Shown here: one piece after another, positions 108 through 59,330 of the stretch
Position numbering within the stretch: the stretch's first letter is position 1
How the letters are laid out: every line of letters starts with the position of its first letter
NCBI RefSeq assembly: GCF_023822025.1
Contig: NZ_CP082909.1
Span: forward strand, 1 to 64,000
Length of the DNA: 64,000 nucleotides
Direction: 5' to 3'
Source of the DNA: Endozoicomonas sp. 4G
GTDB taxonomy: Bacteria; Pseudomonadota; Gammaproteobacteria; Pseudomonadales; Endozoicomonadaceae
The notes under the pieces: generated by a model
The model's input: the letters and a program-made list of their open reading frames with translations, nothing else
Database searches by the model: none
Told to the model about the DNA's origin: nothing
Translations under genes and position numbers: made by a program

Positions 108-595
108 ATGAACGAACAGGTGATCGAGCAGATCGACGGTATCCGCCTGAGCCTCTCGGCGCTGTCTCGGGAGTTCGGGATTGCGCGGGAGACGGTCGGC
201 AAGCGCCTGGCCGCCGCGGGCGTGGCTCCCGACGGCGACCGCAAGGGCTACCCGGTCTATCGGCTCGGGCCGTCGTGCCGGGCGCTGCTGCAGGCGGAGA
301 CGGCGAGCTCGGGGCGGGTGGAGAACCCGGAGGATCTGCCGCCGCTGGAGCGCCGCGCCTGGTACCAGTCCGAGCGGGAGCGCGTGCATCTGGAGCGGGA
401 GCAAGAGCACCTGGTCCCCGCCGAGGAGGTTCGCGAGCAGCTCGCGCTGGTGATCAAGATCACCAACCAGTTTCTCGACACGCTCCCCGATGTGCTCGAG
501 CGCGATTGTCGGCTCCCGACCGATGCGATCGCGGTCTTGGAGAAGCGCCTGTCGTTGGCGCGCTCCGACTGGGCCGAACGGCGGAGGCGGCATGA
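108..595 (+). CDS. Terminase small subunit (DUF1441/Nu1-like)
   Basis: This is the DNA-recognition subunit of the packaging motor. The N-terminus (about residues 10-60) reads as a helix-turn-helix of the Nu1/DUF1441 type, with LSREFGIARETVGKRL followed by KGYPVYRL. A charged helical stretch (ERRAWYQSERERVHLERE) follows and would dimerise or bind the large subunit. The frame stays open past the gene. The likely stop is the TGA at 593-595, which overlaps the large-subunit ATG but is reached only if one base was lost near 575-592. Position directly before the large terminase supports the call. Confidence 0.75.
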
Positions 596-2656
596 GCTAC
601 GCCAGCGCCGTCTCGATCCGCCGCGAGGTCGCCCGCTCCGCCCGCCCGCAGGAGCACATCAGCGTGTCCGAGGCGGCGATGCGTCATCTGCGTCTGCACA
701 CCGATTCCGGCGGCTCCGAGCCCTGGAACCCGGACCTGACGCCCTACATGGTCGAGCCGATGGACCGTCTGATCGATCGGCGCTACGAGGCCGTGATCTT
801 CATCGGCCCCGCCCGGACCGGCAAGACGGGCGCACTCCTGGGCTTTCTCGCCTACATCATCACCTGCGATCCGTCCGACGCCATGGTCCTGCACATGAGC
901 CAGGACAAGGCCGGGAAGTTTTCGAAAAAGACCTCCGCCGCATGTACCGCGAGAGCCCGACCCTCGGCGCCGAGCTGACCGGCCGGGCCAGCGACAACAA
1001 CGTCTTCGAGAAGACCCACAAGTCCGGCAACGTGCTCTACATCGGCTGGCCGTCCGCCTCCCAGCTGTCCGGCGAGACGATCAAATACATGGCCATCACC
1101 GACATGGACCGGATGTCCCTGTCGGTGGAAGGAGGAGCAGCCCCTTCCTCATGGCCAAAAAGCGCACCCAGACGTTCCTCAGCCGGGGGCGCACCTACGT
1201 CGAGACCTCCCTGGCTACGAGGTCACCGATCCCAAGTACAGCCTGAGACACCCGCACGAAGCCCCGCCCGCACCCGGCGCCGTTGCGCTCTACAACCAGG
1301 GCACCATGTGCCGCCGCTACCTGCCGTGTCCGCACTGCGGCGAGTTCTTCATGGAGCCGAGCGACTTCAGCGGCTTCAGCTTCGCCCACAATCGAGACCT
1401 CCTGGGCGCCACGATCCCCGAGGCCATCGGCGAGGTGCACCTGATCTGCACCGCCAACGGCTGCCTGATCGACCCCTCGCACAAACAGGCCATGTCGCGC
1501 GCCGGCCTGTGGGTGCCTGCCGGCGGTCGAATCGAGGACGGCCGTGTCGTCGGCGAGCCGCGTGACGCACCCTACGCCAGCTACTGGCTGACCGGCGTGT
1601 CGGCCGCGTACCAGGAGTGGGAATCCATCGTCCGCGCCTACCTGCAGGCGGAGTTCGTCTACGACACCACCGCGGACGAGGAGCCCCTGCGCAACACCTA
1701 CAACCTCGACATGGGCATGCCCTACCTGTCGCGTTCCCTGCAGGCCACGCGCGACAGCAACAGCCTCACCCGCCGCAAAGAGGAGATGCCCCGACGCGTC
1801 GTTCCGCACGGCGTGCGCTTCATCCTCGCGGCCGTCGACATCCAGGGCGGGCGCGATCGGCGCTTCGTGGTCCAGATGATCGGCTACGGCGAGCACCTGG
1901 AGAGTTGGATCATCGACCGCTTCAACATCCGCCACCTCGACGCCGACGACGACAGCATCCGCCTCGACATGAGCACCCATGTGGAGCACTGGGACGTGCT
2001 GATCCACCAGGTCATCGACCGCACCTACCCCCTGGCCGACGGCAGCGGCCGACACATGCCCGTCCACCTCACCGTCTGCGACACCGGCGGCGAAGACGGC
2101 GTGACCGACCGCGCCTACGCCTTCTACCGATCGCTGCGCCTGCGCGGCCTGTCCAACAAACTGATGCTCGTGAAGGGCGCGAGCGGCCGCTCCGCCCCCA
2201 AGCTCGAGGAGCGCTACCCGGACACCACCAAGCGCAAAGACCGCAACGCCGAGTCCCGCGGCGACGTGCCCGTGTGGTTCATCAACACCAACACCCTCAA
2301 GGACATCATCAACAACAACATGGGCCGCACCGACCCCGGCCCCGGCTACATGCACTGGCCCGCATGGCTCGGGACCTGGTTCTTCGACGAGCTCACCGCG
2401 GAGAAGCGCAAAGACGACGGCACTTGGGAGCAGGTCAGCCCCCGTAACGAGGCGTTCGACCTCTACACCTACGCCCACGCCGGCCTGATCCGCCTCGGCG
2501 CCGACAAGTTCAACTGGCAGCAGCCCCGCACCTGGGCCGCCGACTGGGACGACAACCCCGAGATCGTCACTGCCCGACAGTCAGGCCGTCGACCCGCTAC
2601 CGCGCGCCGTGGTGCCGACGGCACGGCCGGTGCGGTTTCGGCAGAAGGCCAGATAA
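592..2656 (+). CDS. Terminase large subunit, GpA family (three frame breaks)
   Basis: This is the ATPase/nuclease that cuts and pumps phage DNA into the prohead. It begins MSYASAVSIRREV, and a Walker A-like GPARTGKT lies near residue 70. The reading then moves between frames near 925 (gaagttttcgaaaaag), 1140 and 1210, and each step fits a single missing base. After 1213 it runs on with CPHCGEFF and later a nuclease-like region (VCDTGGEDGVTDRAY). The restored length of about 688 residues is close to the lambda GpA family. The TAA at 2654-2656 is the likely end but needs further frame correction, so the exact C-terminus is uncertain. Confidence 0.85.
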
Positions 2657-2661
2657 CCGGC

Positions 2662-4402
2662 ATGACAACCCCCGTTGTGGTCGGGAAGGCCGTGCTGCAC
2701 CTCGGCGACTGTCTCGACGTGATGCGGGGATGGACCCCGCATCTGTCGACTCGATCGTCTGCGATCCGCCGTATGGCCTTGGGTTCATGGGGAAGGAGTG
2801 GGACAGCGGAAAGTCTTTTGTCGAGCGCAAGGCGGCAAAGCCCAACACGTTCGATCACGTCGGCGGCAACCACAATCCGGCGAACAGCAAGGATCAGCAG
2901 CGCACAAGGCATCGCGAGGGCATTGCTTACCAGGAATTCATGCACGACTCATTTACGGAAGCCCTGCGTGTCGCCAAGCCCGGCGCCCATCTGCTTGCGT
3001 TCGGCGGCACCCGCACGTTCCACCGGCTCGCTGTCGCGATCGAGGATGCAGGATGGGAGATCCGCGATACGGTGATGTGGGTTTACGGGTCCGGGTTTAG
3101 CAAAGGCTTTAACCTGCGCAGAGCTGGCGTATGTGTTTGTTCTGAAAGTGGGAATGCTGTATCATGTATCCATCACGAAACTGGAGATGGGCATGGCAAA
3201 CAGACAACCAAACACGACGTGCGACTTGTGCGGGGAAGCGATCTACCGACGCCCGAATCTGCTCCTCAAGAACAAGGGAAAGTTTTGCTCTACGGCTTGC
3301 AGGAACAAGGTTCACAAGGCGTTTGGCCCGAGGGGTCCGAATCCGAAGCTGGCAGGAGAAAACAATCCGGCGTGGAGCGGGGGAGCTATATCGAGCCGGA
3401 GAAAGGGTATCGGATGATACGGAATCCGAGCCATCCGCGAGCGCGACAGAATGGGTATGTTCTGGAGCACATTCCGGTAGCCGAGAAGATACTTGGCCGA
3501 TCGTTGACGGCGGAGGAGGAGGTCCATCACATCAACCGGGATCGGGCGGACAACAGGCCGGAGAACCTGAAGGTCTACGCGAGTCATCTGGAGCACTGGA
3601 TGGACGAGCATTACACGGACGTGGCCAATGCCCGCGATGCGGCAAATTACTCAAAGAATACGAAGGATTCGGGACATCTCTAAAACCAGCGTTTGAGCCG
3701 ATCATCGTCGCGCGCAAACCCCTCGACGGCACCGTCGCCGGGAATGTGCTCAAGCACGGCTGCGGGGCGTTGAATGTGGATGGGTGTCGGATTACTGCGG
3801 ATGGCGGTCGCCCGTTGCGCGAGATCGACCCGAAACAGACGAACAACAACGCCTATGCCGGGCGCATGGACGGATCGCTTCAAGGGGGATCGAAAGCCGT
3901 TGGCGAGACGACTCTTGGCCGGTTCCCCGCGAACCTCATTCACGACGGCTCGCCCGAGGTGGTCGCGCTGTTTCCGCAAACGGAATCGGGCACACTGAAT
4001 CAAGGATCGATCACGTCGGAAAACCGGATCTACGGCAAGCGCGGAGGGTACGACAACCCGACGCTGTATCAAGGCAACCAAGGCAGCGCCGCCCGCTTCT
4101 TCTACTGCGCCAAAGCCAACAAGTCCGACCGCGACACCGACAACACGCACCCGACCGTAAAACCCGTCGAGCTGATGCGCTATCTGGTGCGCTTGGTTAC
4201 CCCGCCACGCGGCGTCACGCTGGACCCCTTTATGGGCTCAGGTTCTACCGGAGTCGCCGCCGTCCTCGAAGAGGCCCGGTTCATCGGCATCGACTACGAA
4301 CCAAGCTATTTCGAGATCGCCAGCCGCCGCATCGACGACGCCCAACGCCAGCAGACCCTAGACCTGGATCCGCCCGACCCGCGCGCCCAAACCCCTCAAT
4401 AA
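2662..4402 (+). CDS. Phage DNA methyltransferase interrupted by an HNH gene
   Basis: This is an amino-methyltransferase of the N6-adenine/N4-cytosine class. The catalytic CDPPYGLGFMGKEWD lies near 2755-2800, and the SAM-binding LDPFMGSGSTG near 4212-4243 sits in the C-terminal half, the beta-class order. The start MTTPVVVGKAVLHLGDCLDVM is followed by a frame break at cgggg near 2728. The N-terminal half ends at about 3110 (MWVYGSGFSKGF). The expected continuation (YEGFGTSLKPAFEPI) resumes at about 3655 in another frame. An HNH endonuclease gene fills the roughly 540 bases between. Whether an active enzyme is made depends on how, or whether, this insert is removed. Confidence 0.8.
3193..3683 (+). 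CDS. HNH homing-type endonuclease inside the methyltransferase
   Basis: The first part, MANRQPNTTCDLCGEAIYRR, carries a four-Cys zinc-finger pattern (CDLC...CSTAC) and a GENNPAWSGG motif typical of phage HNH homing endonucleases. After a frame break in ggggg near 3380, the protein continues with GYVLEHIPVAEKILGRSL and the HNH core EEEVHHINRDRADNRPENL. It ends at TAA 3681-3683 in a frame different from the methyltransferase. Such enzymes nick DNA and spread their own gene. I see neither clear intein splice residues nor a convincing group I intron core, so this may simply be an invading gene that split its host gene. Confidence 0.75.
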
Positions 4403-29617: not shown

Positions 29618-29722
29618 ATGCCCGTCACCATCTCCGGCATCACCGAAGCCAAAGCCCTGCTCGCGCAACTCACGGGGCAGATGCGCGAGGGTGCTACGCC
29701 AGCACTACAGCACCGACTAACC
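29618..29722 (+). CDS. Short tail-end gene or remnant
   Basis: MPVTISGITEAKALLAQLTG looks coding. With one frame correction near 29690 it would end VLRQHYSTD at TAA about 29720. The continuous frame instead runs into the integrase, without coding character in between. It is either a mini-gene or the start of a truncated minor tail gene. Confidence 0.35.
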
Positions 29723-29738
29723 CGCTACTCATCGCCTG

Positions 29739-29885
29739 ATGATTCAGGAGCTTGGGCGCGTCGTCCGACCGATCGAGCATCGGGGCAACCGCAAGTCGCG
29801 CACCCGTTCGGCGGCATGGGGTTGCGCGTGGTTGCTCGGGTTCTCGGGGTTCCTGCCTGTCGTTATTCTGCACTGTTTTTCCTGA
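29739..29885 (+). CDS. 48-residue putative membrane peptide
   Basis: MIQELGRVVRPIEHRGNRKS is followed by one hydrophobic helix (WGCAWLLGFSGFLPVVILH) to TGA 29883-29885. It has no good ribosome site. It is plausible as a holin-like or superinfection peptide but could be chance. Confidence 0.25.
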   Translation: MIQELGRVVRPIEHRGNRKSRTRSAAWGCAWLLGFSGFLPVVILHCFS

Positions 29886-29917
29886 TTCGCAATTATTCTG
29901 TTGCCAAATGCTACGCG

Positions 29918-29952
29918 GTAGCGCTACAACGCCCGGTTTTAGCACCGGGGCG
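29918..29952. promoter_or_regulatory. Palindromes directly before the integrase
   Basis: GTAGCGCTAC (29918-29927) is a perfect palindrome. CGCCCGGT (29930-29937) pairs with ACCGGGGCG (29944-29952) over a six-base loop, four bases before the integrase ATG. They may control integrase expression or form part of the attachment region. The AT-richer stretch 29870-29912 lies beside them. Confidence 0.4.
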
Positions 29953-29956
29953 AAGC

Positions 29957-31045
29957 ATGGCGACGATCTCAGCACGCAAGCGGGGCGACGGCACGACAGT
30001 TTACACGGCGCAGATCAGACTCAAAAAGGCCGGCGTCGTCTGGCACAGCGAGGCGAAGACCTTCAATCGACGGGCTGCGGCCAAGGCGTGGGCGCTTGAG
30101 CGCGAGGACCAACTGCGCTCGGACCCGGAATCGGCGAAGCGCGCGGATCATGCCGGGCTCACGGTCGGAGACTTGATTCGCAGTTACATCAAGGCGCGCG
30201 AGGCGATCGAGCCGCTTGGGCGAACGAAGGGCGATCATCTGCGGTTCCTGCTCGGGCAACCGATCGCGGGTGAACTCGCAGTAGGGCTGACGGCGGCTCG
30301 GGTTGTGGCGCATGTGCAGGCGAGGCGCGAGGGCGGGGCAGGCGGGGCAACGGTCTCGAATGATTTGACGTGGCTGCGGGTGGTCTTTAAGTACGCCCGG
30401 CTCGCGCTCGGGATTGCGGTCGATCCGCTCGCCCTGGCCGACGCGACGGACATCAGCAGATCGGAGCGGATGATCTCCAGGCCGATCCGGCGCAAGCGGC
30501 GCCCGAGCGACGACGAGCTGACGAGGATCGACGCATGGTTTCGCGCGCACCGACCGAGCGGACGGGTCGGCAGTGCGCCGATGGATCTGGTCATGTGGGC
30601 GGCGATCTATTCCTGTCGGCGACTGTCGGAGCTGTGCCGGATGAGGATGTCCGACTATGATCGCGAGCATCGCGTGTGGCTGATCCGGGATCTAAAGCAT
30701 CCCGGCGGGTCTGCGGGGCACGACGCCGAGATGCTGGTGACTGAGCGATTCGCCACTGTGGTCGAGGCGATCCTGGCGCTACCGGGTCGCAAGCTCGACG
30801 AGCCGCTGATGCTCCCGTTCGATCCGCGCACCGTCTCGGCGAGGTGGACGCGGACGATGCACGTTCTCGGGATCGAGGATCTGCACTTTCACGACCTAAG
30901 AAGATGCGGAGCGAGTCGGCTCGCCGAAGACGGGTGGACCATCCCCGAGATTCAGCGCGTGACGCTCCACGATTCTTGGTCCTCGCTGCAAATCTACGTC
31001 AATGTGCCGGCGCGCAAGACGGGGCGGGTGGAGTGGGGTGACTAG
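29957..31045 (+). CDS. int: Tyrosine-recombinase integrase
   Basis: A 362-residue uninterrupted protein, MATISARKRGDGTTVYTAQI, with an N-terminal arm-binding domain (residues 1-60), a SAM-like core-binding domain and a catalytic domain. Catalytic residues are visible: Arg in SCRRLSEL, His-x-x-Arg in HFHDLRRCG, His/Trp in LHDSWSS and the nucleophile in QIYVNV. It integrates and excises the phage. It is separated from the immunity genes by the long leftward operon, and its 3' end faces the end of that operon. Confidence 0.92.
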   Translation: MATISARKRGDGTTVYTAQIRLKKAGVVWHSEAKTFNRRAAAKAWALEREDQLRSDPESAKRADHAGLTVGDLIRSYIKAREAIEPLGRTKGDHLRFLLGQPIAGELAVGLTAARVVAHVQARREGGAGGATVSNDLTWLRVVFKYARLALGIAVDPLALADATDISRSERMISRPIRRKRRPSDDELTRIDAWFRAHRPSGRVGSAPMDLVMWAAIYSCRRLSELCRMRMSDYDREHRVWLIRDLKHPGGSAGHDAEMLVTERFATVVEAILALPGRKLDEPLMLPFDPRTVSARWTRTMHVLGIEDLHFHDLRRCGASRLAEDGWTIPEIQRVTLHDSWSSLQIYVNVPARKTGRVEWGD

Positions 31046-32955: not shown

Positions 32956-33155
32956 ATCAACTCCAAAAACGATGGACAGGTATCGTAAACGACCGATAGC
33001 CGGTCGAACGGGAACAGGCTGTCGACGCTCGGGGTGCGCGGCGTGATCTCGTATCGGTGCAGCCAGCGGGCGCACCGGGCGGATTGCGGGCAGTCGGCGT
33101 CGTAGCAGCGGGTGACCTCTTCGGCGAGGCGCCCCGCGCCGGCTTGGTCACGCAT
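32952..33155 (-). CDS. Small phage protein, unknown
   Basis: Sixty-seven residues, MRDQAGAGRLAEEVTRCYDA, with DCPQSARCARWLHRYE, a Cys pair around a helix. It starts inside the deaminase stop region and overlaps the following peptide gene. No family is recognised. Confidence 0.5.
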   Translation of the reverse strand: MRDQAGAGRLAEEVTRCYDADCPQSARCARWLHRYEITPRTPSVDSLFPFDRLSVVYDTCPSFLELI

Positions 33156-33588
33156 CACGGTCGACCTGTGCGAACTCGATCCCGGCATGCCGATACACCC
33201 ACGCGGCGAGCTCCAGCGAGGGGCCCCATCGCGCCATCTGCTCGCCGGAGGGCTGAGGCGCGACGACGCGCCGGATGCCGGCCTGTGCGAGCTTGGCGGC
33301 GCACCGCGAGCACGGGGGCATGGGCCAAACGTAGGCGGTGCAGCCGTCGAGCGACTGGCGAGCGAACAGGAGGGCGTTTTCTTCCGCGTGCAGGACCAGG
33401 GAGAGCTTGGTCTCGCGGTGCTCGAGGATGGCGGCGTCGTCCGGCACGCAACGCGGCAGGCCGTTAAAGCCGGTCGAGACCACCCGCCCCTCCCGGTCAA
33501 GGAGGGCGCAGCCGGCGCGGGTACTCGGGTCCTTGGATTTGGCTGCGACGGCGCGCGCGATGGACATTCCGTATTCATCCCACGTCAT
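33148..33588 (-). CDS. dCMP deaminase-type zinc enzyme
   Basis: A 146-residue cytidine/deoxycytidylate deaminase. The zinc site is HAEENALL (His and catalytic Glu, about residues 67-71) and PPCSRC (about residues 91-96). The substrate-handling TGFNGLPR is near residue 39. It converts dCMP to dUMP and feeds thymidylate synthesis for phage DNA. It sits mid-way in the leftward operon among small unknown genes. Confidence 0.85.
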   Translation of the reverse strand: MTWDEYGMSIARAVAAKSKDPSTRAGCALLDREGRVVSTGFNGLPRCVPDDAAILEHRETKLSLVLHAEENALLFARQSLDGCTAYVWPMPPCSRCAAKLAQAGIRRVVAPQPSGEQMARWGPSLELAAWVYRHAGIEFAQVDRDA

Positions 33589-33818
33589 CGGCAGGCCTTC
33601 ACGAGCCGATCGATCGCCTTGCGCACCAGCGGCCATTCGGCCGGGTCGATCGTGATGCGTGCATCCCGGTGCAGACTGGATTGCGCCAGGACGATAAACT
33701 CCCCGCCCGATTCGTCGTCGATGTCGATCCGGGTCGTGCCGTCGGCGTAGATCGGATCCCCTCTGCGGCTGACGCTGTACTGGGTCGCCCGGCATTCGTA
33801 CTTCTTGGCCTTGCTCAT
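33585..33818 (-). CDS. Small phage protein, unknown
   Basis: Seventy-seven residues, MSKAKKYECRATQYSVSRRG, basic at the N-terminus and beta-rich (GGEFIVLAQSS), with a helical end (WPLVRKAIDRLVKA). The family is not recognised. Its overlap with the deaminase gene suggests co-expression. Confidence 0.5.
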   Translation of the reverse strand: MSKAKKYECRATQYSVSRRGDPIYADGTTRIDIDDESGGEFIVLAQSSLHRDARITIDPAEWPLVRKAIDRLVKACR

Positions 33819-34670: not shown

Positions 34671-35176
34671 AATCGTCCGCCAACCGCTGGATGCGGCGAT
34701 CCACCGACCGCGCGGCGCTCCACACCGGGTGACCGGCGAGGAGCTGGTCGGCGATCGTGATCAGTGCTTCGCGCGAGGTCTCGCAGGCCTGCAGCAAATC
34801 CGACTCCCACCGATGGTCCTCCGCGTCACCGTCGGCGAGGATGTGCGCCCACGGGGATGCGTATTCGTCGCCGTTGGTGGAGCTCCCTGCGGTGTCGATG
34901 TCCTCGGGGGCGGTATCCGGCGTCGAAGGCGCTCGGGCGTGCGGACGTCGGGGGCGGGGCGATCTGCGCGGCGGCGAGAATCTCCGCGCTTTTGCCTTGG
35001 CCGATGACGCCCTGGTCGACCGGGATGGCTGCGCGGCTCTCGATCGCGCGATACTCCGCGGCGATCTCGTCGGCGACGGCGTCGAGTGCGGCCCCCGCGA
35101 CTCGTGCGGCTGCCTCCGCAGCGCTCGGCAGACGGTAGGACGCGACCGCGCGCGAGCCCTTGGTCTTGGCCGGCAT
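34663..35176 (-). CDS. Phage protein, unknown (one frame break)
   Basis: The N-terminus MPAKTKGSRAVASYRLPSAA, with a long Ala-rich helix, runs in one frame to about 34950. The C-terminus (NGDEYASPWAHILADGDAED, LLQACETSREALITIADQLL) is in another, giving about 170 residues. It overlaps the gene downstream. No family is recognised. Confidence 0.45.
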
Positions 35177-37494: not shown

Positions 37495-37550
37495 GGTGTC
37501 GGTCTCCTTGCGGTTGTCTCGCTTAAGGTATTTCATTCTTTCGATGGAAA

Positions 37551-38017
37551 TGGCTCGATCGCCATCCTTGATTCGTTCGGCTTTTTGGCTCGATTGCTTC
37601 GCCTGGTTCTCTCCCCATGGATGGCTCGATTCTGCTGTCTGGTTCTTTCAAGATGGATGGCTCGATTCTGCTGACTGGTTCTTTCCAGATGAATGGCTCG
37701 ATCGTGCGCAGTGATTCTTTCTTGTACATTGGCTCGCTCGCCGGCTTTGGTTCTTTCAAAATGCTTGGCTCGATCTCTCGATTTGGTTCTTTTCCCGATA
37801 CTGGCTCGATTGTTCGCCTTGGCTCTTTCGTTATTGATGGCTCGATCAGCTGCGATGGTTCTTTCAGTCATCATGGCTCGATCCCGGGTTATGGTTCTTT
37901 CCTTTACTGTGGCTCGCTCGCGCGTACTGGTTCTTTCGGCCCTTCTTGCTCGCTCGCGCGGACTGGTTCTTTCACTTATCGTGGCTCGATCCTTGAACAT
38001 GGTTCTTTCGGTCGGGG
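37551..38017. repeat. TIGR-like array 1 (13 units of 36 bp)
   Basis: Twenty-six consecutive half-units of 18 bp (one of 17) alternate between TGGCTCGATY-N8 (A) and TGGTTCTTTC-N8 (B). Examples of A are at 37622, 37658, 37802 and 37838. Examples of B are at 37640, 37748, 37856 and 37964. The constant 10-mers are well kept while the 8-mers differ in almost every copy. Half-units are multiples of three, so an open frame of GS-I/F-xxx hexapeptides results and is not a real protein. The 36-bp unit with two repeats and two short spacers matches the TIGR array pattern. Confidence 0.85.
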
Positions 38018-38021
38018 TGGC

Positions 38022-38045
38022 TGCCCGAGCGGCAATCCGCTCGGG
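38022..38045. terminator. Strong hairpin between array 1 and the Tas-like gene
   Basis: GCCCGAGCGG pairs perfectly with CCGCTCGGGC over a CAAT loop. It lies 12 bases downstream of the Tas-like stop and just before array 1. No T-run follows on the minus strand, so it could be a processing or boundary element rather than an efficient terminator. Confidence 0.6.
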
Positions 38046-38056
38046 CTTCGTTCAAT

Positions 38057-39184
38057 CTACTTTTGCGCAATCTGCGGCGGTTTAATGTAATGGGCATGCC
38101 CGCCGTGCGCGATCACCCAAGGCGCGGGCGGCTCGGTGCCGGTTTCCTGGCGCCACCAACTCTCTTGGAGATGCGAAAGGAACAGCTTTACCGCGTAGCG
38201 CTGACTCCGCATCTGGATCTGAGCTGGCGGAAGCATGGGAACGCCCGGATAATCGTCGTCGGCTTTGCAGGCTGCCGCGGTCGGCGTGGTGCCTGACTCC
38301 AACAGCGCGCGCGCTTTCTCGGCGCTACATCCGCCCGAGTACCAAGCATGCGCGTCGGTTTGCTTGCCGATTTTCTTTCCGGTCAGCGCCTTCGTGGCCT
38401 GATCCGACAGCATCCCCGCGAGGTTGCGCTTCCATTCCAGGGTTTTGCGTTCACGGTAGACGCGACCATAAAAGCCGTCGGGATGATTGGAGACCTTCAC
38501 GAAACTCTCGCCGATCTTCCAGCACAGCGTTTTCAAAGGGCCGTTGAATGGCTTGCGCGAGATCGCCGAGCAAGCGTTCGCCTCGGTCAGCTTCACCTCG
38601 GTGCCATCCGGCTTATGGGTTGCCATGTGGATCAGGTTGGCCGGGTTGCGCCCGACCTTCTCGGCGACCGCAACCAGGCGCTCTTCGATGCTCGGGCCTT
38701 TCGTCTCGGTCCAGATCGCCTTGGCCTGCTCCCGGCTGCACCATTGAACGTTCGGGTCCAGTCCGGCGAATCGCCAGATATGCCCGGCGGTCGGGGCCTT
38801 ATTGATGTCGATGTGGGCCAAGAGCCCGGCAGCCAGAATCGGCCCGATGCCTGTTGTCTGGTCAAAGAACCACGCCATCGGGTGGGTCTCGGTGTAGATG
38901 GCGAGCAGCTTCGCGACCGAGTCTTCCAGGGCGGTAAATTGCTTCCCGACCCAGTCGATCGCCTCGTGCGGCTCGGCGGTGTTGCCGGACTTCTTGGCGT
39001 CGCGCTCAAGCCCCTTGGATTGGTTGCCGACGGCAATCCGGTTCGCCTGCATGTTGTAGTACAGATCGACCAGATAGCGTGCTTCGGAGTCGGTGACCCC
39101 TCCGCCGTTTTGGCGCAACCCCTTGGTCATGTCGCGGGTCAGCTTGTAGACGGGCGTCAGCATCGATTCAAGTTCGGCGTGCAT
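38057..39184 (-). CDS. Tas-like protein with IS110-C-terminal/Nop-like domain
   Basis: A 375-residue intact protein. The start 39184 is chosen because ggagag lies just upstream of MHAELESMLT. Residues 1-100 are helical. Residues 108-146 hold TTGIGPILAAGLLAHIDI and HIWRFAGLDPN, the helix-hairpin-helix signature shared by the IS110-family C-terminal domain and Nop domains. KTLCWKIGESF and FYGRVYRERKTLEW (residues 218-251) continue it. No DEDD, RuvC or HNH motif is visible, so a nuclease-free guide-binding type (TasA-like) fits best. It is flanked on both sides by the 36-bp arrays, which is the main argument against a plain transposase. Confidence 0.72.
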   Translation of the reverse strand: MHAELESMLTPVYKLTRDMTKGLRQNGGGVTDSEARYLVDLYYNMQANRIAVGNQSKGLERDAKKSGNTAEPHEAIDWVGKQFTALEDSVAKLLAIYTETHPMAWFFDQTTGIGPILAAGLLAHIDINKAPTAGHIWRFAGLDPNVQWCSREQAKAIWTETKGPSIEERLVAVAEKVGRNPANLIHMATHKPDGTEVKLTEANACSAISRKPFNGPLKTLCWKIGESFVKVSNHPDGFYGRVYRERKTLEWKRNLAGMLSDQATKALTGKKIGKQTDAHAWYSGGCSAEKARALLESGTTPTAAACKADDDYPGVPMLPPAQIQMRSQRYAVKLFLSHLQESWWRQETGTEPPAPWVIAHGGHAHYIKPPQIAQK

Positions 39185-39225
39185 TGGTTCTCTCCGGTTG
39201 GCCGCCACCAGGGCGGCCGTTTTGG

Positions 39226-39492
39226 TTACGCGGCCTTATCGGCCATCGGGTTGAAGTTCAGCGACTTCAGTTCGCCATTCGCTTTCATGCCGTACTTGAA
39301 CAGCTCGGCGCGACGGCTTGCCAGATCGCGGCTCAGAAGGACTTGGTTGCGCACGCCGATGGAGAAGCTTTTCATCTTCTCGGCCGCGGTCAACTTGGCG
39401 TCGTTGAACACCTCGTCAAGCAATGCGGCGTTGGCGGTCATCATCGATTCGTAGGAATCGATTCGGGTTTCCTGTGTGACTTGGTCTGTCAT
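39226..39492 (-). CDS. Small helical partner of the Tas-like gene
   Basis: An 88-residue helical protein, MTDQVTQETRIDSYESMMTA, with SFSIGVRNQVLLSRDLASRR. It sits 41 bases before the Tas-like start on the same strand, between the two arrays. The intervening gap holds an inverted repeat (GGCCGCC/GGCGGCC) before the Tas ribosome site. I do not recognise a family. A cofactor, adaptor or regulator of the guide system is an inference from position only. Confidence 0.55.
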   Translation of the reverse strand: MTDQVTQETRIDSYESMMTANAALLDEVFNDAKLTAAEKMKSFSIGVRNQVLLSRDLASRRAELFKYGMKANGELKSLNFNPMADKAA

Positions 39493-39544
39493 ATGCGTAC
39501 CCTTAGGGTTGATTGATGACGGTTGATGAAACGCTTGGTGTTCC

Positions 39545-40158
39545 TGGTTCTGTTATCGGGGATGGCTCGATCACCTTTAATGGCTCTCTCAGCAACATTG
39601 GCTCGATCGATGTACGTGGTTCTTTCGCAGTTTTTGGCTTGCTCCTTTACACTGGTTCTTTTCACCTGACTGGCTCGCTTCAACACGCTGGTTCTTTCGT
39701 AGAATGTGACTAACTCTTTCGTATGTGACTCGATCACCAGTAATGGTTCTCTTCCCCGATCTGGCTCGATCGTACGTCCTGGTTCTTTTGTCGCGGCTGT
39801 CTCGATTCGCTTTAGTAGTTCCTTCGTTGCTTTTGGCTCACTCTTCAAATCTGGATCTTTCACCCTTAGTGGTTTGCTTCTGTATCGTGTTTCTGTCTTC
39901 GTATGTGGCTTGATCAGGGTCCTATGGTTCTTTTGCGTGTGTTGGCTCGATCGTTTTGATTGGTTCTTTCCCGGTGTTTGGCTCGATCAAGTGCTTTGGT
40001 TCTCTCTTGTGCTATGGCTCGATCTGCAATCATGGTTCTTTCCCTCAAGATGACTCACTCTCACCCCGTGTTTCTTTCAATACCCATGGTTCACTCCAGG
40101 TCGCTGTTTCTTTCCTCCGCTCTGGTTCGCTTGCGCTCTTTGGTTCTTACACAGTGAC
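39545..40158. repeat. TIGR-like array 2 (about 17 units of 36 bp, partly decayed)
   Basis: About 34 half-units follow the same grammar as array 1, for example A at 39563, 39762, 39943 and 39979, and B at 39617, 39744, 39961 and 40033. The constant parts are more degenerate (tgactcactc, tgtttctttc, tagttccttc). Phase slips of one base occur near 39707-39725 and 39924, and one A-A junction breaks alternation near 39726. The right end overlaps the stop codon of the upstream minus-strand gene at 40147. If transcribed leftward, this array comes before the small gene and the Tas-like gene. Confidence 0.8.
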
Positions 40159-40305
40159 TGGCTTTTTAGCGTCGATGCGCGCAATGGTCACGAACGCCCA
40201 ATGCAGCGCTTCGACGCGGGTGAAGAACCACGGTGAGACTTGGTCATCCTGCCAAAGGATTGCGCGGTACTGCCGGGCTTTGCATTGAATCTTGTAGGGG
40301 GCCAT
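40147..40305 (-). CDS. First gene of the leftward operon, unknown
   Basis: A 52-residue protein, MAPYKIQCKARQYRAILWQD, basic and beta-rich, ending AFVTIARIDAKKPVTV. Its TAA lies inside the last half-unit of array 2, so array and gene share bases. It is the first gene after the promoter at 40353-40381 and is probably an early protein. Similar small proteins resemble DUF-type modifiers. No name is given. Confidence 0.5.
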   Translation of the reverse strand: MAPYKIQCKARQYRAILWQDDQVSPWFFTRVEALHWAFVTIARIDAKKPVTV

Positions 40306-40334
40306 GGCCGTCTCCTGTGCTGCGATCGCCCTAA

Positions 40335-40388
40335 ATTGCGCGACCTGCAATCATCCTAGCCGCGTCCAGCCATTGCGTCAAGCGCAAT
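40335..40388 (-). promoter_or_regulatory. Leftward early promoter with two repressor operators
   Basis: On the minus strand TTGACG (40381-40376), a 17-base spacer and TAGGAT (40358-40353) form a good sigma70 promoter. Two operator copies frame it: ATTGCG-TCAAG-CGCAAT (40372-40388) over the -35 and ATTGCG-CGACC-TGCAAT (40335-40351) at the start site. The same palindrome lies in the rightward promoter at 40892-40908. The downstream transcript carries the small gene, array 2 and the Tas-like operon. Confidence 0.75.
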
Positions 40389-40402
40389 CGTAAGCGAAAG
40401 GC

Positions 40403-40426
40403 AAAAAAGCCCCGACTAGCGGAGCT
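40403..40426 (-). terminator. Terminator after the repressor gene
   Basis: On the minus strand AAGCTCCG-ctagt-CGGGGCTT is followed by a TTTT run, a classic intrinsic terminator. It ends repressor transcription just before the leftward promoter, insulating the early operon. Confidence 0.65.
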
Positions 40427-40446
40427 TGGTTTTGGGAGGAAGGTCT

Positions 40447-40823
40447 TTAAGCGCGCCGACGGTGGCGGGTCGGGCGGGTGTCTGCGGGAGATTTCTCAGG
40501 ATCATCACGCCATCGACGGAAGACCGAATCGAGCAGAGCCGGATCGATGGTGTCGATCAGCTCATGCAGCGCGGCCTTCCGTGGGTCTCCCTCCTTGGGG
40601 GCTGTCCATCCTCCGCCAGGCGGTAAATCTCCCATACTTTCACATCCAGTGCCTTGGCGATGGCTTCGAGGCGGTCGGTCGTGGCGGCCTGTTTGCCCTT
40701 GATGATCCGGTTGAGGTTGGCGGTGTCCATCTCGCCTGCGCGTTCCGCGAGCTGCTTCTGGTTGTACCCGCGATCAACCATCAAGTGATCGATCGCGCGG
40801 CCGATGTCTATGTTGGTGAGCAT
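40447..40823 (-). CDS. XRE-family phage repressor (one frame break)
   Basis: The helix-turn-helix reads GYNQKQLAERAGEMDTANLNRI within MLTNIDIGRAIDHLM..., then LEAIAKALDVKVWEIY. The frame breaks near 40600 in agccccca and the C-terminal part (KAALHELIDTIDPALLDSVF) follows in another frame to about 40447, roughly 125 residues in all. It is divergent from the Cro-like gene and next to shared operators, so it is the likely immunity repressor. The recognition target is inferred to be ATTGCG-N5-CGCAAT. Confidence 0.7.
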
Positions 40824-40881: not shown

Positions 40882-40910
40882 TTGACAGTCTATTGCGGAA
40901 TGCGCAATCT
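40882..40910 (+). promoter_or_regulatory. Rightward promoter with operator, leaderless start
   Basis: TTGACA (40882-40887), a 17-base spacer and CAATCT (40905-40910) form the rightward promoter. The operator ATTGCG-GAATG-CGCAAT (40892-40908) overlaps spacer and -10. The start site would fall at about 40917, so the Cro-like ATG at 40918 would begin the mRNA, a leaderless message. Confidence 0.6.
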
Positions 40911-40917
40911 TAGGGGC

Positions 40918-41121
40918 ATGAACGGACTGAGACATCAACGAACCTCGCGCGGCTTACTTTTGAAGGATGCCGCGGAAAGCCTGGGCACGGATCCGGGGAA
41001 CCTGTCTCGCATCGAATCCGGCAAGCAGGCACCGAGCCTTCGCCTCGCCCGCAAGATTGCCACCTTCTACGGCATCACCCTTGAGCAGGTGTTTGACGGC
41101 CAATCAGAAAAGGCCGCCTGA
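40918..41121 (+). CDS. Cro-like XRE regulator
   Basis: Sixty-seven residues, MNGLRHQRTSRGLLLKDAAE with SLGTDPGNLSRIESGKQAPS, a compact XRE helix-turn-helix, then LRLARKIATFYGITLEQVF. Small size and divergence from the leftward repressor make it a Cro/CI-type antagonist. It heads the rightward early operon that leads to replication genes. Confidence 0.75.
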   Translation: MNGLRHQRTSRGLLLKDAAESLGTDPGNLSRIESGKQAPSLRLARKIATFYGITLEQVFDGQSEKAA

Positions 41122-59140: not shown

Positions 59141-59330
59141 CAAACCATCGGAGTTCCAGGTCAAACCATCGGAGTTCCTGAGTCAAACCATCGGAGTTCA
59201 GGGTCAAACCATCGGAGTTCTGAGTCAAACCATCGGAGTTCTGAGTCAAACCATCGGAGTTCAGGGTCAAACCATCGGAGTTCCTGAGTCAAACCATCGG
59301 AGTTCCGAGTCAAACCATTGGAGTTCCCTC
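59141..59330. repeat. Tandem array of nine 21-22 bp repeats
   Basis: The core CCATCGGAGTTC recurs about nine times, each followed by variable bases and GTCAAA. An open frame across it is a consequence of near-regular spacing and is rejected as a protein. It lies between lipA and the efflux operon. The nearby dispersed palindromes are at 59330-59354 (CGTTCCCACGC...GCGTGG) and 59406-59446 (CGTTCACCCTGAGCG...CGCTTAGGATGAACG). Confidence 0.75.

Follow-up and report, generated by a model that had tools for sequence, protein, structure and literature searches.

The first 64,000 nucleotides of the Endozoicomonas sp. 4G contig NZ_CP082909.1 (assembly GCF_023822025.1), all of which were analysed and are called the window here, contain a prophage with terminase, portal, head protease and tape-measure genes and an integrase, which is the setting that a preliminary description of this DNA had proposed. 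Within it, tas and a companion open reading frame (ORF) of 88 residues lie on the minus strand with two long repeat arrays of 13 and about 17 units around them, as first described, and a divergent pair of Cro/C1-type helix-turn-helix (HTH) genes follows at 40.5-41.1 kb. In this article, I argue that the locus is a new member of the TIGR-TasA family of RNA-guided systems, whose link to the switch of the phage is plausible and open to test.

The Tas protein

The tas gene is a full open frame whose product, 375 residues long from the ATG at 39184 to a stop ending at 38057 (the length given earlier), has a confidently predicted fold; a first structure model, made from two sequences, was poor (pLDDT, the predicted local distance difference test score, of 49.8) and was discarded. 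Hidden Markov model profile comparison, structure prediction and structure alignment all place the protein among the Nop-domain Tas proteins, confirming what had been surmised from the letters alone, and the Tas profile match, the Nop-type fold and the dual-repeat arrays together make it almost certain that the locus is TIGR-Tas of the nuclease-free TasA type. Archaeal Nop5 is not among the structure matches listed for the model, which excludes nothing. The aligned core starts at model residue 27-33, with fewer than 35 residues N-terminal of it, so that there is no space for an N-terminal nuclease of the RuvC or HNH kind carried by TasR (PDB 9mty) and TasH (PDB 9vzx, 9w04 and 21kl), and neither family is among the protein's matches in Pfam and NCBIfam searches, which bears out the nuclease-free type suggested at the outset. 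The protein is matched by Transposase_20 in Pfam (3.9e-5) and by PHROG 4285, labelled transposase (4.4e-35); the IS110 model NF033542 gives 18 bits against a cut-off of 140, and since the alignment to IS621 starts at IS621 residue 125, the N-terminal catalytic half of IS110 recombinases (IS621, PDB 8wt6; ISCro4, PDB 9t56) is missing. A helical insert at residues 150-209 is shared by 16 of 47 aligned proteins, this one counted.

The arrays and their polarity

Identity at a lag of 36, taken in 180-nt windows, reaches 0.72 in array 1 and 0.59 in array 2 and is at most 0.47 in the rest of the window, so the periodicity of the arrays is not a product of chance. Read on the tas strand, the 36-nt unit holds two 10-nt repeats, RATCGAGCCA and GAAAGAACCA, both beginning with RA (mostly GA) and both ending in CCA (box C), separated by spacers of mostly 8 nt; the constant parts agree with those of the preliminary description, and so for the most part do its 8-nt variable parts. 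The unit length of its strict 18 + 18 grammar stands and the strictness does not, because array 1 has a single 17-nt step (37569 to 37586), and in array 2 two steps measure 19 nt and the phase slips once, with consecutive edge-type repeats at 39726-39735 and 39707-39716, the latter placed by hand with a score under the scan threshold. The span first claimed, 37551-40158, is correct to within one repeat, with decayed repeats continuing in register at 37533, 37515 and 37497, and the 3' ends of the arrays fade into degenerate repeats.

TIGR arrays are described as beginning with a 5' truncated edge repeat, their repeats ending in box C with co-varying edge and loop forms (Faure et al., 2025; PMC12045711). 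In the window, AGCCA starts array 1, 13 bases 5' of the first loop repeat, and reading it as such a truncated edge repeat makes RATCGAGCCA the edge and GAAAGAACCA the loop; array 2 opens with a degenerate full-length edge-like repeat and no truncated one. The orientation of the array RNA, at first thought not to be fixed by the sequence, can thus be read from it and is very probably that of the minus strand, as for tas. The hairpin that adjoins array 1 at its 5' end has a folding energy of -23.2 kcal/mol (z -4.4), and none of 200 shuffles is equally stable. Outside the arrays, the minus strand of the window has three near-matches to the loop repeat, of which the solitary GAGAGAACCA before the tas start is one; its position aside, it may be a chance occurrence. 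Spacers resemble one another no more than expected within the window (8 pairs differing by at most 2, against 8.1), and array growth through unit duplication, tried as a general rule, was not shown: adjacent units with at least 10 of 16 equal spacer letters number 12 of 495, against a permutation mean of 8.1, and 113 of 2000 permutations reach 12. One related locus (L034:1314-1740) does hold a TIGR unit in exact tandem duplicate, with near-duplicates adjoining.

Table 1. Features of the tas locus and its surroundings (window coordinates).
Feature	Position	Strand	Remarks
Integrase	29618-31045		same prophage
Decayed 3' tail of array 1	37497-37542	-	three degenerate repeats in 18-nt register (37533, 37515, 37497), read by eye
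TIGR array 1	37551-38022	-	26 full repeats (13 units, 37551-38009) and 5' truncated edge repeat AGCCA (38018-38022)
10-bp hairpin	38023-38046	-	between tas stop and array 1, abutting array 1 5' end
tas (TasA-type)	38057-39184	-	375 residues from ATG; alternative GTG start at 39208 gives 383
Solitary loop repeat GAGAGAACCA	39185-39194	-	immediately 5' of tas ATG
88-residue companion ORF	39226-39492	-	between array 2 and tas
TIGR array 2	39545-40150	-	34 repeats (about 17 units); more degenerate than array 1, with a phase slip near 39716
52-residue ORF	40147-40305	-	heads tas operon; overlaps first repeats of array 2
Second palindrome, one mismatch	40335-40351	.	just downstream of -10
Predicted tas-operon promoter	40353-40381	-	TTGACG-17-TAGGAT, 9 of 12
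Palindrome ATTGCG-N5-CGCAAT	40372-40388	.	over -35 of predicted tas promoter
Terminator-like site	40407-40427	-	between HTH gene and tas promoter; weak, with 6 in region against 6.6 expected
HTH gene (Cro/C1-type), repressor candidate	40557-40823	-	PF01381 8.8e-10, PF13443 3.5e-9; searched ORF began at TTG 40874
Palindrome ATTGCG-N5-CGCAAT	40892-40908	.	between divergent HTH genes
Divergent HTH_3 gene, Cro/C1-type	40918-41121	+	PF01381 1.1e-11; searched ORF began at ATG 40804

Relatives and known systems

The best 80 of the 301 relatives given by a scan of viral contigs make up, together with L034, L038 and the window, a set of 83 loci; arrays of 34-37 nt units lie within 3.5 kb of tas in 77 of them, some of these calls being near the detection threshold of 0.47, which equals the background maximum in the window. 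By hand count, at least five repeats stand on both sides of tas in 20 of the 77 (the window included, and L146, L148 and L071 being mutual near-copies), and arrays flanking both sides are also stated for the family by Faure et al. (PMC12045711), so the two arrays around one Tas that had seemed noteworthy are a common arrangement. Among 72 non-redundant loci, none has a consensus repeat starting TGG, as an antisense array would. The 49 of these that are in register (23 were left out) were chosen by a filter that demanded A as the second and C as the ninth base, and these two columns therefore carry no evidence. The first base is G in all 49 edge consensuses and in 48 of the 49 loop consensuses, the last base of box C is equal in edge and loop in 48 of 49 (36 expected), and both repeats have changed together in seven of the eight loci where that base is not A. 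This co-variation agrees with the one reported (PMC12045711).

Measured against the dual-repeat TIGR-TasA systems, as set out in the part of Faure et al. (PMC12045711) that this comparison draws on, the locus is alike in its solo Nop-type protein, its 36-nt units of two alternating repeats and two spacers, its arrays upstream and/or downstream, its phage or prophage home, its truncated 5' edge repeat and its co-varying CCA-ended repeats. It differs in repeats that start with GA where those of TasR start with UG (box D, reported to diverge with co-variation), in spacers of 8 nt, 16 in all, as in SpTasH and unlike the 18 of FpTasA and TaTasR, in arrays after which no terminator-like site was found, in its 88-residue companion and in a palindrome shared with the phage switch. 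The TasA-tasParB operons of the same report also combine TasA with a partner gene, 10-nt repeats and arrays on both sides, whereas the partner here has no Pfam, PHROG or NCBIfam match at an E-value of 1, ParB included, the ParB search being confined to this companion and not extended to genes further off. In a literature library without preprints and with few subscription journals, Faure et al. and one review were the only papers whose titles name TIGR-Tas; the TasH structures, deposited in the PDB in 2026, show that more work on the family exists.

The window's own genome has a single match above the Tas cut-off, with a second at 32.9 bits below it; the 37 host-family genomes have Tas above the cut-off in the window's own only, the 390 genomes of the order contain two close matches, one of them the window's own, and phage records give no match to the protein at 1e-5. 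One contig (L033), labelled as belonging to a Kiritimatiellae metagenome-assembled genome, matches window 38036-40745, array 2 included, without a mismatch and with two gap openings, and turns to unrelated genes from inside the hairpin before array 1 (L033 ~2713); judging by this junction it is probably a chimeric assembly. The Tas protein of L034 is 52% identical (tblastn; 61% by alignment), and its gene order of array, small ORF, tas and array is that of the window, with an ORF 64% identical to the 88-residue companion in the same place. That companion has no relatives in the viral contigs, phages or 368 of 369 class genomes, the sole match being the window's own; ORFs of 80-87 residues between upstream repeats and tas in L180 and L182 were considered as homologues and are unsupported (profile comparison probability 0.3%). 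L002, with a Tas 58% identical, has different small ORFs at the companion position. The TIGR-Tas locus of that contig (L002:2468-6741) has the N half of a split phage DNA polymerase (family A) on one side and the C half on the other, and Thiohalocapsa phage LS06-2018-MD04 (OP947166) has the same polymerase split, with overlapping halves and no insert.

The operon and the phage switch

The tas operon lies directly beyond the minus-strand HTH gene and on the same strand, headed by a 52-residue ORF without a PHROG match (its first 49 residues were searched). Over its predicted promoter, and again between the divergent HTH genes, stands the palindrome ATTGCG-N5-CGCAAT; these are the only two exact copies in the 6.0-Mb genome, and they lie within 520 bp. 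Allowing up to one mismatch, the window has three sites against 0.38 expected, a count that 1 of 100 shuffles reaches. From these positions it is rather likely that one HTH protein binds the palindrome as an operator and so links tas to the switch. A fuller proposal, which I offer tentatively and at somewhat less than even chances, puts tas and its arrays in the lysis-lysogeny regulon of the phage. The switch protein that binds between the divergent HTH genes would also shut the tas promoter through two palindrome copies, and upon infection or induction some 30 paired-spacer guides would come into play early, for a nuclease-free, RNA-guided takeover or exclusion; a dedicated small partner protein, which at least one relative has retained, would belong to the system.

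Target searches

Guides were searched in the published geometry (spacer A, then the reverse complement of spacer B, with a gap of 0-2), its order deduced from the overhang in PMC12045711, and in three wrong geometries. The 31 guides were run against one phage stretch, four Tas loci and the window without its arrays. In none of the geometries does a site reach 15 of 16 matches; at 13 or more of 16, the published geometry gives 82 sites, the wrong ones 85-89 and shuffled pairs a mean of 96. Likewise, 1919 guide pairs from 77 loci, taken in both registers and hence about half mis-paired by design, were run against 1.26 Mb of Tas-phage DNA and gave 2 exact and 210 one-mismatch sites in the published geometry, compared with 5, 10 and 4 exact and 191, 186 and 214 one-mismatch sites in the other three, and 5, 7 and 7 exact and 204, 229 and 217 one-mismatch sites in three mis-paired controls. 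In a host set of 400 kb (17 stretches adjacent to integrases, one between two of them and two at the contig end) plus a 43-kb phage and the window, the published geometry finds 33 sites with two mismatches and no closer one; the wrong geometries find 33, 31 and 26 sites with two mismatches and 1, 1 and 0 with one. With no enrichment over controls, there is no support for guides aimed at the phage itself or, within ~10 kb of tas, at other Tas phages. BLAST of joined predicted targets against the genome returned nothing and, having no positive control, is uninformative.

An exact-pattern search with 3 of the 31 guides in 10 genus genomes matched one guide twice and the other two not at all; the matches lie in a zinc-finger-like repeat gene of the window's own genome (1974434, with a one-base gap) and, without a gap, at G027 7228837, in a gene which I take to be yicC. 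They exceed the 0.08 per guide expected (an estimate assuming equal base frequencies) and, the sites being unrelated, are probably chance. The gene near 1974434 is a bacterial open frame of ~490 codons (L225 ~760-2240) with C2H2 zinc-finger-like repeats (CDHEGCxY...HLKxHKxxHLP), which are unusual outside eukaryotes.

Neighbouring genes

Two overlapping ORFs that lie in different frames (window 108-3075) both match the profile of the large terminase, which suggests a split gene, broken or mis-sequenced, and the primase gene of the prophage is perhaps split also. The prophage further carries a cytidine/deoxycytidylate deaminase-like gene (33148-33795, minus strand, PF00383 9.8e-19), and a tRNA-Glu (ctc) lies at 35006-35084 on the plus strand, between integrase and tas. 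At 59141-59327, a 21-bp unit (CAAACCATCGGAGTTCCGGGT) is repeated head to tail about nine times.

Discussion

The best account of the locus is a TIGR-TasA system within an early leftward operon of the prophage. A transcript would start near 40350 and run leftward through array 2, the 88-residue ORF, tas and array 1; cleavage in the edge repeats would release 36-nt guides (tigRNAs), each made of an edge half, spacer A, the loop repeat, spacer B and another edge half, and each would be held by a Tas dimer, its two 8-nt spacers pairing with opposite strands of one 16-18 bp site. Tas would then bind and bend the DNA, and that it binds without cutting is likely. One of the two HTH proteins of the prophage would sit on ATTGCG-N5-CGCAAT at both the tas promoter and the divergent switch promoter and, because it would occupy both, Tas is proposed to be expressed as an early function when the switch opens. 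The purpose of nuclease-free TasA is posed as an open question by Faure et al. (PMC12045711); here the likely effect is that the guides direct Tas to silence or block rival elements or genes of the host, and I put it at even odds that these, rather than the phage itself, are what the guides address. Family, type and general mode of action, taken together, can be held with considerable confidence.

Several observations weigh against this account. The predicted tas promoter by itself is no better than chance (2 such sites in the region against 1.0 expected), the palindrome was spotted by eye in the region before it was counted, and a homopolymer-length difference between the window and L033, read by eye, alters the 3' part of the minus-strand HTH gene, leaving its product in this strain uncertain. 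The repeats start with RA in place of the UG box D of TasR, a scan of the minus strand finds no terminator-like site at the 3' end of either array, array 2, with its lower repeat information content, phase slip and off-length steps, may be partly dead, and no target exceeded the control level in any set tested.

Other explanations are credible to differing degrees. An IS110-family transposase beside unrelated satellite repeats is what the database names would imply, and it is scarcely credible for a protein that falls so far below the IS110 cut-off and aligns with IS621 from residue 125 only, in a genome with one match above the Tas cut-off and in a family with arrays beside the gene at 77 of 83 loci. 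A TasA whose guides address the phage's own genome or attachment site, as regulator or integrase helper, would suit the integrase in the same prophage and the RNA-guided help to integrases suggested by Faure et al. (PMC12045711); the 31 guides nevertheless find no near-complete site in the window outside the arrays, and looser sites are no more frequent in the published geometry than in wrong or shuffled ones, which makes it quite doubtful. Somewhat less improbable, though still unlikely, is a decaying relic in which tas is intact and the arrays, above all array 2, are out of use: the irregularities of array 2 and the apparently split terminase, and perhaps primase, speak for decay, whereas the full open frame and confident fold of Tas, the regularity of array 1 and the mismatch-free stretch of array 2 in a second assembly (L033) speak against it. 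The more serious doubt, which I nonetheless think will prove unfounded, concerns the palindrome, which could be coincidental or the mark of another regulator, with tas outside the switch regulon; just three sites seen by eye and a promoter at chance expectation leave room for it, and against it stand the confinement of the exact form to 520 bp of a 6.0-Mb genome and the excess of near-exact sites, two of them on the predicted promoter.

On the TIGR-TasA reading, the prophage carries, with two guide arrays, one representative of a family of RNA-guided DNA-binding systems that was described only recently, and the survey of 83 loci adds to that family the polarity of its arrays, the co-variation of their repeats and a controlled negative on targets. 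Since the prophage resides in a one-contig genome and its apparent on-off site is shared with the phage switch, expression, RNA processing and targets can all be tested in one lysogen, where a common set of DNA sites may control both the system and the genes that decide the life cycle of the virus.
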